A DNA stretch of 64,000 bases from Candidatus Gastranaerophilales bacterium (GTDB lineage: Bacteria > Cyanobacteriota > Vampirovibrionia > Gastranaerophilales > Gastranaerophilaceae): NCBI GenBank assembly GCA_947624325.1, contig CANQJT010000005.1:1-64000 (forward strand), read 5' to 3'. Below are positions 10,097-20,676 of this stretch, one piece after another. A program made the translations under genes and the position numbers. The notes beneath the pieces were generated by a model. That model made no database searches. It was given only the letters and a program-made list of their open reading frames with translations, and was not told the origin of the DNA. Position 1 is the first letter of the stretch. Every line of letters starts with the position of its first letter.

Positions 10097-10121
10097 TTAA
10101 GAAAAATTGGGGAGAGAGATA

Positions 10122-10490
10122 ATGGAAAAAATTCAAAAAATAAAAAATATCATTACAGCACTCGGTAATCACGAAGATTCTAAAGCTGCAATAGATATTC
10201 TTACCGAAATAGGAACTAATTCACCTGATGATGAAATCAGAGAATTAACGGCTCAAACATTAATAAGGAAAAATACGCATGAATCATTAAGAGTAGTTTT
10301 AATATCAAAAGGAAAAGGTATTAATGATTTAAGTGCAAGAGTTGCAATGACTGCAATAAATGAATTATTAGCCCTTAAAGATAAAAAAGAAGCCATCAAA
10401 ATTCTGGATGATACAATAAAAATGCATTCGGAAGAAGATGTAAGAAATACAGCTCGTTCAGTAAGAGCATTGATGACATTTTCCTCATAA
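10122..10490 (+). CDS. Small HEAT-repeat-like helical protein
   Basis: Predicted 122-residue all-helical protein. It shows three or four pseudo-repeats of about 35 residues with ITALGNHEDSKAAIDILTEI, IRELTAQTLIRK and VAMTAINELLALKDK patterns, as in HEAT/armadillo scaffolds. Such proteins usually bind other proteins; no catalytic motif is visible. I choose the ATG at 10122 because GGGGAGAG lies at the right distance; an in-frame TTG at 10107 lies upstream of that site. A terminator follows at 10516. Confidence 0.7.
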   Translation: MEKIQKIKNIITALGNHEDSKAAIDILTEIGTNSPDDEIRELTAQTLIRKNTHESLRVVLISKGKGINDLSARVAMTAINELLALKDKKEAIKILDDTIKMHSEEDVRNTARSVRALMTFSS

Positions 10491-17731: not shown

Positions 17732-19237
17732 CTACAAACTTTTTTTATCAGTTTTTTGAAATTCAAAACCTTTTTTAAATGCGTTTTTTATATAATATTT
17801 TTCATCATCCGAAGGCACATAATACAAATCTTTTAATTTATCACTTAATGAATATATAATATAAAATTCTGTATTATAAACTGTTTTATAATTTTCCGGA
17901 ATATAATCATTTATCAATGCATCAGCAGGAATAATTATATAGTCCGGCTTATAAGGCTCTTCAAATATTTGCTGCCAACCGTCTTGCGCATTATAAAATT
18001 TATCAAGAAGTTCTTTTTCTTTATAAAAATATACTTCTTCATAGCGCCCATCCATATAAATTAAGTTATTGGGGAATAATTTATAAGCTGTGTAGCTTCC
18101 TAAATCTAACGGAGCAAGAATTTTGCCTTTTAAATCATTTACCTTAAAAAACTCAATTTCTTTTAAAGGCTGTTCCTTTAAATAATTAAAATCGGCATTC
18201 TTCACAATATCATAACTGCCAATTCCTAATATACAGAAAGCAATTATTAAATACGGAAATATTTTATAATCCTTTTTTTGGTGAAAATACAAATTTTCAT
18301 ATAAGAAAATCATTGATACTATTATAAAAAACGGTATATTCTTTATGTACTTATAAGATAAATATGCACAAACAATAAGTAATATGTATTTTGTAAAATC
18401 ATTTTTAAAATCTTTAATTCTTAAAAACAACAATATAAAAAACAAAATATAGAATATTTTAAAAAGATTAAATATTCCGCTAGAAGTTACAAAGGGACTA
18501 ATCCACTCTGTTACATAAGGCCGAGGCATCGTTGATGCAATAAAAACAAATTTTACATAATCAATTCCGTAAGGATTAATAAACATTACTGCAAGACAGG
18601 CAAGAAGTGTAAATAAATATTTTTTAAATGGTTTTTTGTTTAGGAATTCACCAAATGTGTAAATTGCCAACATTCCCAGCCCTGCTACACATCCGCCATG
18701 ACAATTTACCCATATAATCATTATTAATGGTAAGATTAACAATAATTTATTTTCAAATTTATTACGAACTCTTTCAAGTATATAAATATATATTGTAAAA
18801 AATAAAAAAGTAAAAAAATGACATCTTAAGCTTGACTGAAAAACAGTAGGCATAGCCGAAATACCTGCTGCGGCAATTAATATATCATACCAGCAAAAGG
18901 TTTCTTTATGCTTAAGTCTTATTGTTTTAAAAATAAAAACAATAATTAAAAGACTTATAAGAATTTTAAAACAGAATATTCCCCAATATCCAAAATAATT
19001 CAAAATAAAAGAAAATATAACACTTGCACCCCACTCATGGTCAATCCAGATATGAGTGGGAGTATACGAAAAAATATCTGTTTTTAATATATGTCCTAAT
19101 TGCCAAAAAGCATCCCCCTGCATTATTCTTGCCCAAAAGTCAGGATCTATATTATTTGACAAGAATGCATATATTATTACAATCAACAAAACATATATAT
19201 AAAAAAAAGTATTAAACTTTAATTCATTATATTTCAT
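17732..19237 (-). CDS. Multi-pass membrane protein, GT-C glycosyltransferase-like
   Basis: A 501-residue protein with about ten hydrophobic helices over residues 10-350 and a soluble C-terminal part. The first periplasmic loop has DPDFWARIMQGDAFWQLG and DIFSYTPTHIWIDHEWG. This D-x-F/W ... D-x-F-S-Y-T ... HEW pattern is seen in uncharacterised envelope proteins resembling GT-C glycosyltransferases. The acceptor is unknown. It leads the minus-strand unit with the U32 and YqeG genes. No ribosome binding site is visible; the promoter sits 6 nt before the ATG. Confidence 0.7.
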   Translation of the reverse strand: MKYNELKFNTFFYIYVLLIVIIYAFLSNNIDPDFWARIMQGDAFWQLGHILKTDIFSYTPTHIWIDHEWGASVIFSFILNYFGYWGIFCFKILISLLIIVFIFKTIRLKHKETFCWYDILIAAAGISAMPTVFQSSLRCHFFTFLFFTIYIYILERVRNKFENKLLLILPLIMIIWVNCHGGCVAGLGMLAIYTFGEFLNKKPFKKYLFTLLACLAVMFINPYGIDYVKFVFIASTMPRPYVTEWISPFVTSSGIFNLFKIFYILFFILLFLRIKDFKNDFTKYILLIVCAYLSYKYIKNIPFFIIVSMIFLYENLYFHQKKDYKIFPYLIIAFCILGIGSYDIVKNADFNYLKEQPLKEIEFFKVNDLKGKILAPLDLGSYTAYKLFPNNLIYMDGRYEEVYFYKEKELLDKFYNAQDGWQQIFEEPYKPDYIIIPADALINDYIPENYKTVYNTEFYIIYSLSDKLKDLYYVPSDDEKYYIKNAFKKGFEFQKTDKKSL

Positions 19238-19272: not shown

Positions 19273-19388
19273 TATGTAAAGTTTTATGAAGACTTAAAAC
19301 CCAATATCTAAGGGATTTTTTACTTTTTCATAAAAATTATTAAATAAAAAACTAAAGTTTAAAAAATTAATGCCGACATATAAATATG

Positions 19389-19462
19389 TCAAGGGCAATA
19401 AGCCCCATAAAACCTCCCTCCCCAAAAAGTCTAGTAGCCGCCTTAGTGACGGCTTTTTTTTT
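19389..19462 (+). ncRNA. Candidate small RNA: hairpin, CU-rich single strand, terminator (Yfr1-like layout)
   Basis: Stem GGGC/GCCC with loop AATAA (19393-19405), then an unpaired stretch with CCTCCCTCCCC (19413-19423). A terminator hairpin AGCCG/CGGCT (19436-19454) with nine T (19454-19462) closes it, about 74 nt in all. The CU-rich stretch is complementary to ribosome binding sites. This matches the layout of cyanobacterial Yfr1 (two hairpins flanking an unpaired CU-rich element), though the motif differs from ACUCCUCACAC. TATAAA at 19378-19383 is a possible -10. Alternative: the complement gives a strong SD and a 13-aa frame on the minus strand. Confidence 0.5.
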
Positions 19463-19477
19463 ACATATTTATATCAA

Positions 19478-19633
19478 TTAATCAATTCTGCTGATGGGGA
19501 CAGTAACTTTTACAGGTTTCAAGAAATTAAAAAAGTTTCTTTTACCGCCTTTAAAATTAATTGTTTCTTCCGTTTTTTCTTCTTTATTCATTGTTTGTAA
19601 TTCAACTGCAAATTTAATTAATCTCGGATTCAT
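19478..19633 (-). CDS. Small basic protein, 51 aa, with INFKG motif
   Basis: MNPRLIKFAVELQTMNKEEK... is a 51-residue frame with GGTGGGA eight bases before its ATG. An in-frame TTG at 19687 would lengthen it but has no ribosome binding site. The middle holds ETINFKGGKR (residues 23-32), resembling the N-terminal VSFKG motif of the 9647 protein. There is no membrane helix. It is oriented toward the candidate sRNA and lies divergent from the PSP1 gene. Existence as a gene is plausible, not proven. Confidence 0.4.
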   Translation of the reverse strand: MNPRLIKFAVELQTMNKEEKTEETINFKGGKRNFFNFLKPVKVTVPISRID

Positions 19634-19712
19634 ACAAAATTCCCACCCATTTACTAACCTATAATTTAAATAAGTATTTTTATTCAAGAAAATTGCGTTT
19701 AATTAAATTTTT

Positions 19713-19749: not shown

Positions 19750-20676
19750 ATGTTTGCAGTAAATTTAATTAAAAATAAACAATATCCGCTTGATATACCT
19801 GAAAATGTCACAGTAAAACACGGTGATATGGTAATTGTATTAACTGAAAAAGGTGAAGAAGCCGTTAAAGCATTTCTTGTACCGCCGCAGGTTGAAAGCA
19901 TTTTAAAGCGGAAAAAAGTACCTGCTATTCCATTTTTAAGAGTTATGACTGATGAAGATTTAGCAGTCTACGAAGAAATAAAGAAAATGGAAGTTCAAGG
20001 ATATAAAGATTGCCTTGAGCTTATAAATCAGCACAAACTTGTAATGAATTTAATACAATGCAAATATACCTTTGACAGAAGGAAAGTTACTTTTTATTAT
20101 ACAGCACCTGAAAGAGTTGATTTTAGAGAGCTTTTAAAAGATTTAACAAAGGTTTTTAAAAGAGTTCGTATTGACTTAAAGCACATTGGGGTCAGGGATG
20201 AAACGTCTTTATGCTGCGGAAACGGATTATGCGGAAGACCGTTTTGCTGCTGCACGTTTAAACGGCAGTTCGATTCCATAAATATAAAGCTTGCTCATGA
20301 CCAGAGTATGCCTATAACTCCCAGTAAAATATCGGGAACCTGCGGAAGACTATTGTGCTGTTTAAATTATGAATATAAAAACTATATTGAAACAGCGAAA
20401 GAAATGGTTCCTATAGGCTCGGGTGTAATGACCGCTGACGGGGTCGGCAGGGTGTGCGCATTAAATATTTTAACCAAAAATGTTTCAGTTAAATTAGCTG
20501 ACGGTAAAATTAAAGAATTTCCGTATAATGAAGTTGAAATGATTGATACTGATGTTAACATTGAAATTGATATCGGAAACACAGGCTATAAATACGCATC
20601 TATGCAGCAAACAGATGAAAATGTTGATATAAGACAATTTGAAGACGATAAAAACAGCTCAACAGGAAATATTTAG
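19750..20676 (+). CDS. PSP1 domain protein (YaaT/RicT-like)
   Basis: A 308-residue cytoplasmic protein of the PSP1 C-terminal domain family. The domain spans about 1-235 and carries the Cys clusters CCGNGLCGRPFCCC and CGRLLCCL. In Bacillus subtilis YaaT (RicT) binds [4Fe-4S] clusters with YlbF and YmcA and promotes mRNA processing by RNase Y. The Cys pattern here fits a metal cluster, but partners are not in this window. The acidic tail (from about 255) is variable. Its stop overlaps the convergent histidine kinase gene by 18 bp. Confidence 0.88.
   Translation: MFAVNLIKNKQYPLDIPENVTVKHGDMVIVLTEKGEEAVKAFLVPPQVESILKRKKVPAIPFLRVMTDEDLAVYEEIKKMEVQGYKDCLELINQHKLVMNLIQCKYTFDRRKVTFYYTAPERVDFRELLKDLTKVFKRVRIDLKHIGVRDETSLCCGNGLCGRPFCCCTFKRQFDSINIKLAHDQSMPITPSKISGTCGRLLCCLNYEYKNYIETAKEMVPIGSGVMTADGVGRVCALNILTKNVSVKLADGKIKEFPYNEVEMIDTDVNIEIDIGNTGYKYASMQQTDENVDIRQFEDDKNSSTGNI

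Follow-up and report, generated by a model that had tools for sequence, protein, structure and literature searches.

The window analyzed here is a 64,000-nucleotide stretch of Candidatus Gastranaerophilales bacterium (GCA_947624325.1, contig CANQJT010000005.1, forward strand 1-64,000), a member of a non-photosynthetic cyanobacterial order found in animal guts and groundwater. Between two minus-strand genes lies a compact plus-strand locus with the organization of a small RNA (sRNA) gene, and the features of the region are as follows:

17732-19237, minus strand, large membrane-protein gene flanking the sRNA on the left
19353..19360, plus strand, -35 element TAAAGTTT, an exact match to the sigma-28 (FliA)-type consensus
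19372..19379, plus strand, -10 element GCCGACAT, N11 downstream of the -35 element
19388..19462, plus strand, sRNA gene of ~75 nt, its probable start 8-9 nt past the -10 element and its end at the T run
19393..19405, plus strand, 5' hairpin GGGC-AATAA-GCCC, the fold of most copies, with compensatory changes at 4/4 pairs
19413..19423, plus strand, CU element CCUCCCUCCCC / CCTCCCTCCCC, predicted to be single-stranded and proposed as the pairing seed
19430..19436, plus strand, UCUAGUA (TCTAGTA), conserved and unpaired, directly 5' of the terminator stem
19436..19462, plus strand, intrinsic terminator AGCCG-CCTTAGTGA-CGGCT + T9, a GC hairpin plus T run
19478-19687, minus strand, small ORF flanking the sRNA on the right
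19750-20676, plus strand, PSP1-domain gene to the right of the small minus-strand ORF

The hairpin, unpaired CU element and T9 terminator of the original prediction are all present as described. The predicted length of 74 nt also fits the ~75 nt proposed here, but the start assigned to it, 19375, falls within the -10 element (19372-19379). The inverted repeat GACATATAAATATGTC (19375-19390), which likewise begins inside the -10 element and is lost in relatives, belongs to the promoter, and the spacing of the elements indicates that a transcript of ~75 nt most likely starts near 19388. A generic sigma-70/terminator scan of the locus reported neither the promoter nor the terminator. The CU element is unpaired in single-sequence folds of the window copy and of most other copies. 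The fold of 19388-19465 in this one genome is only weakly better than its shuffles (z -0.86), and the evidence for the sRNA structure is thus comparative.

The promoter and the T run of the terminator both point to the plus strand as the coding strand. A 13-residue frame preceded by a good Shine-Dalgarno sequence had also been noted on the opposite strand, and it does exist in the window (GGGGAGGGAGG followed by an ATG and 13 codons, MGLIALDIFICRH) on a strand whose fold reaches a z of -2.79. It is not a conserved frame, however, as frame-shifting indels break it in relatives and the ATG is missing in several of them (L028, L029, L032), and no consistent downstream gene accompanies it. We consider it exceedingly improbable that the functional product comes from the minus strand, as a small ORF or leader peptide behind a strong Shine-Dalgarno sequence.

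The surroundings of the sRNA speak to its autonomy. The flanking proteins cluster within genera and differ between genera and families, with no fixed neighbour gene across genera at the loci compared, and tandem sRNA copies occur at L025, L044, L053, L060 and L181. This mobile synteny, together with the tandem copies, indicates that the sRNA is neither the leader nor the trailer of a fixed gene. A strong terminator at the 3' end would suit a cis-acting role on an adjacent gene, as a 5' leader or terminator-attenuator, but with neighbours whose identity changes between genera and families, and with copies in tandem, such a role is very unlikely. On the evidence of its genomic arrangement, the sRNA is a stand-alone trans-acting gene.

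When sequences from mixed families were aligned with MAFFT and folded with RNAalifold, the 5' helix escaped notice, its 3' arm being shifted one column in the alignment. A covariance model, R1, was for this reason built solely from families outside the window's genus, and was trained on 21 sequences, all from families or genera other than that of the window. R1 matches the window copy across 19389-19462 with 46.7 bits (E 2.3e-7, where E-values are rough owing to a shortened calibration). As the model contained nothing from the window's genus, this score places the elements beyond chance, and by this comparison the sRNA locus is real.

A DNA search of 58 genomes recovered the sRNA in most genomes of the window's genus and gave order-wide matches through the CU element, UCUAGUA and the terminator. 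Searching 386 genomes across the phylum with R1 located it in 170 of 173 Gastranaerophilales, counts that rest on draft genomes in which some absences are assembly gaps; all seven families examined carry it. Families f3, f5 and f6 of the order were R1 positive, one genome with three tandem copies. In three near-complete family members FliA is present and a copy of the sRNA was undetected. Outside the order R1 found no credible sRNA: ten sister-order genomes were empty and no sampled Cyanobacteriia genome carried it, also when the search was repeated with laxer filters. Several weak matches were discarded. Two in cyanobacteria (E 0.05-0.09) are at chance level, have no promoter and lie away from Yfr1 loci; marginal ones in a sister-order genome (G374) and in G376 lack the promoter; and another overlaps an apparent tRNA gene. 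The promoter is present at true weak sRNA copies and absent at weak R1 matches elsewhere. When 84,980 named species genomes were scanned with a sequence pattern, the matches fell almost exclusively in Candidatus Gastranaerophilales/Melainabacteria or uncultured records, and a single Bacillus match was judged to be chance, given that a handful were expected by our own estimate for a 20-base gapped pattern.

The 5' helix covaries in related genomes, one of the checks proposed with the original prediction. Across 79 distinct sequences 93% of the cells of the inner 5' helix are paired, and all four pairs show compensatory changes. Over the whole structure there are 89 double-changed cells against 27.2 in shuffles of the 79 sequences; the alignment had been fitted to this structure and so is biased towards it, the copies are not independent and the shuffles ignore relatedness, while the slid-register control agrees in that every slid register scores far below the true one. 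In the terminator stem, three of the five modelled pairs are invariant and one has a compensatory change (79 sequences). The CU-rich element, whose conservation was central to the same prediction, is retained among relatives in two forms, CCUCCCUCCCC or CCUCCUCCCC, which cover 73 of 84 copies (CCTCCTCCCC in 52/84 and CCTCCCTCCCC in 21/84), and it varies by 1 nt in length between genera. TCTAGT[AT]GCCG is found in 74 of the 84 copies, and UCUAGUA, as conserved as the CU element, could be a second contact site. Copies range from 66 to 88 nt. A divergent sub-family (L044, L052, L059) has a shortened 5' part, AATCTCTTCCCC replacing AACCTCCTCCCC, GTCTGGTAGCCGCC and an unchanged promoter, with normal copies alongside in L044 and L052. 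Rfam gave no above-chance match at the locus at gathering or relaxed thresholds, and the literature searched describes no sRNA family for Gastranaerophilales. By these comparisons the sRNA is a previously undescribed family, separate from Yfr1 and restricted to the order Gastranaerophilales.

The promoter is as characteristic of this family as the RNA. Upstream of nearly every copy stands TAAAGTTT-N11/12-GCCGATAA, the sigma-28 (FliA) consensus, and the distance from promoter to RNA start is usually 9-10. The -35 TAAAG is kept in ~60/63 copies, the -10 CGA in ~58/63, and a spacer of 11 or 12 in 59/63. Scored over the 16 positions of TAAAGTTT-N10-13-GCCGATAA (spacers of 10-13 allowed), a site matching at least 12/16 lies upstream in 80 of 84 copies, compared with 8 of 321 control stretches taken at these loci. 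The window's own genome contains seven strict sigma-28 sites and none for the reversed pattern, and FliA (TIGR02479) scores above the curated cut-off in 52 of the 56 relatives, among them the window's genome (G000), where the gene lies at G000:C2:205884-206546. Judged by its sequence, the sRNA promoter is of the sigma-28 (FliA) type, and FliA is the likely regulator of the sRNA.

Flagellin genes, abundant in other Gastranaerophilales families, are missing from the window's genome and from almost every member of its genus. Loss of flagella has been reported in gut members of the lineage (PMC4040986). Among the flagellin genes retrieved from flagellated relatives, roughly half have a similar promoter upstream, which suggests that the sRNA once belonged to a flagellar-type regulon and has outlasted the flagellin genes. 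The best explanation of this distribution appears to be that the sRNA gene is older than flagellin loss in the gut lineage and survived it. The other six strict sigma-28 sites of the window's genome precede protein genes, and the persisting regulon (L067-L073) includes EF-hand-like proteins and very small ORFs; strict promoters stand before proteins of 41, 45 and 86 residues and one beginning MGLAASQARFLGITARKSNIEYEGQQVNQQR. We raise, tentatively and as a less probable reading, the idea that the sRNA is a relic of the flagellar programme: sigma-28 in non-flagellated Gastranaerophilaceae would now drive a non-motility regulon in which the anti-Shine-Dalgarno-like element of the sRNA would broadly curb translation from G-rich ribosome-binding sites for as long as sigma-28 is active.

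Two further observations concern the flagellar apparatus. An FHIPEP (FlhA-like) export-gate gene (G000:C1:485805-487781, ~710 bits) is present in all non-flagellated Gastranaerophilaceae tested, and flagellated relatives have both this ~710-bit gene and a distinct ~875-bit FlhA. The order may thus have conserved another type III export apparatus, one that is simplified or non-flagellar. The flagellin mRNA leaders of flagellated Gastranaerophilales (L128-L131, L347-L386) are apparently ~90 to several hundred nt long, and some of them carry repeated GGA/GGGAG motifs, a pattern expected under CsrA-type control.

We propose that RNA polymerase carrying sigma-28 (FliA) would transcribe the sRNA from TAAAGTTT-N11-GCCGAYAW, from ~19388 to the T9 at 19462. 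The covarying 5' hairpin and the terminator hairpin would flank and protect the C/U-rich element and hold it open. As Yfr1 and the C-rich sRNAs of other bacteria suggest by analogy, this element would base-pair with G-rich Shine-Dalgarno regions in particular mRNAs and, while sigma-28 is active, keep ribosomes from binding. The CU element is complementary to a strong Shine-Dalgarno sequence, so the most straightforward prediction is that the sRNA represses the initiation of translation, again on the model of Yfr1 and UCCC-type sRNAs. Taken together, we think it probable that the locus encodes a sigma-28-dependent, order-restricted, stand-alone trans-acting sRNA whose CU element base-pairs with G-rich ribosome-binding sites.

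Computed target searches gave no convincing match. The full 11-mer complement, GGGGAGGGAGG, occurs in the window's genome solely at the sRNA locus itself, and relaxed complement matches there are about as frequent as in the reversed control (33+32 vs 24+31). A GGGAGG ribosome-binding site occurs at only a small and mixed set of genes. Those common to 2-3 species include genes that, going by their sequences, are leuD-, CoA-transferase- and thioredoxin-like; they were set aside as targets because GGGAGG is an ordinary Shine-Dalgarno sequence. Among flagellin leaders, GGGAG motifs are limited to some of the genes. The mRNAs of the sigma-28 regulon pair with the sRNA no better than background. Among 58 window genes the top predicted duplex, at -21.1 kcal/mol, is with a HEAT-repeat ORF (10107-10490) whose ribosome-binding site is TTGGGGAGAGAG, a candidate target only.

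These results leave some room for a CU element that binds a protein or the ribosome, either as a general anti-Shine-Dalgarno decoy (ACCUCC) or by titrating an RNA-binding protein. Across most of the order ACCUCCU, the core of the 16S anti-Shine-Dalgarno sequence, forms part of the element. The element tolerates a length change of 1 nt between genera, its extended complement is not enriched in the genome, and UCUAGUA, being conserved in its own right, hints at another binding partner. Yet the sequence is conserved beyond the needs of the anti-Shine-Dalgarno core alone and no known protein with such a site was identified, making this reading a rather unlikely one, and pairing with selected mRNAs remains our preferred interpretation.

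The layout that first drew attention to the locus, a 5' hairpin, a single-stranded CU element and a terminator arranged as in Yfr1, is borne out in this melainabacterium. Yfr1 resembles the sRNA in size class (54-69 nt vs 66-88 nt), in its 5' stem-loop, unpaired CU-rich centre and 3' terminator stem-loop, in being a free-standing gene, and in a CUCCUC core found in Yfr1 and in most copies of the new sRNA. Yfr1 is described as 54-69 nt long with an invariant unpaired ACUCCUCACAC, and is linked to guaB in 25/31 and to trxA in 27/31 genomes (PMC2190773). In the new sRNA ACUCCUCACAC is absent from the CU element and no listed variant among the 84 copies matches it, UCUAGUA, which Yfr1 lacks, is added, the promoter is of the sigma-28 type, and the neighbours are different: guaB and trxA do not recur beside the sRNA loci compared, and the thioredoxin gene of the window lies ~3.5 kb from the sRNA with several genes between. 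The two RNAs have disjoint taxonomic ranges and neither model matches the loci of the other. The Rfam Yfr1 model (RF01116) leaves the window's genome unmatched and finds nothing over its gathering score in 16 Vampirovibrionia genomes, while five cyanobacterial genomes pass the threshold in the same search, and R1 scores Yfr1 loci at noise level (<=8 bits). None of the five genomes with Yfr1 reaches the FliA cut-off; it is exceeded in the sister orders, which lack the sRNA, and in four other tested phylum members without Yfr1.

That the locus is a genuine Yfr1 homologue passed down from an ancestor shared by Melainabacteria and Cyanobacteria, as the original prediction envisaged, is therefore highly improbable. 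Neither RNA is present in the sister orders of the class, a gap that speaks against straightforward vertical inheritance, and the suggestion that Yfr1 is older than the divergence from photosynthetic Cyanobacteria, attractive as it was, is now without support. The resemblance is best read, from the sequences at hand, as shared design through convergence, although with RNAs so short a deep shared origin is possible. A second cyanobacterial RNA, Yfr10, has the Yfr1 motif as its functional part, there in a loop and with a motif sequence different from that of the new sRNA (PMC6778093); such a motif is thus used by otherwise dissimilar RNAs. The sRNA is cleanly bounded and occurs in nearly every genome of the order with its own conserved promoter pointing to FliA, and it opens two questions: why a flagellar sigma factor is retained after flagellin loss, and whether the CU-rich Yfr1-like design originated independently in two sister lineages.

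Beyond the cyanobacteria, RsaE/RoxS and FsrA of the Firmicutes are C-rich (UCCC) sRNAs that target Shine-Dalgarno sequences. They share with the new sRNA a single-stranded C/U-rich seed expected to act on G-rich ribosome-binding sites, and differ from it in structure, promoter and lineage; the locus has no Rfam match. The closest functional precedents are sigma-28-dependent sRNAs, namely MotR, FliX, UhpU and FlgO of E. coli (PMC10578931) and the FliA-dependent CJnc170/FlmR of C. jejuni (PMC11187230), which have in common with the new sRNA a shown or predicted transcription by sigma-28. The comparison is made by promoter, with no sequence relation noted. The E. coli FliA-dependent sRNAs are UTR-derived, whereas the new sRNA is its own gene, and unlike both CJnc170 and the E. 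coli set it persists in a lineage without flagellin genes.
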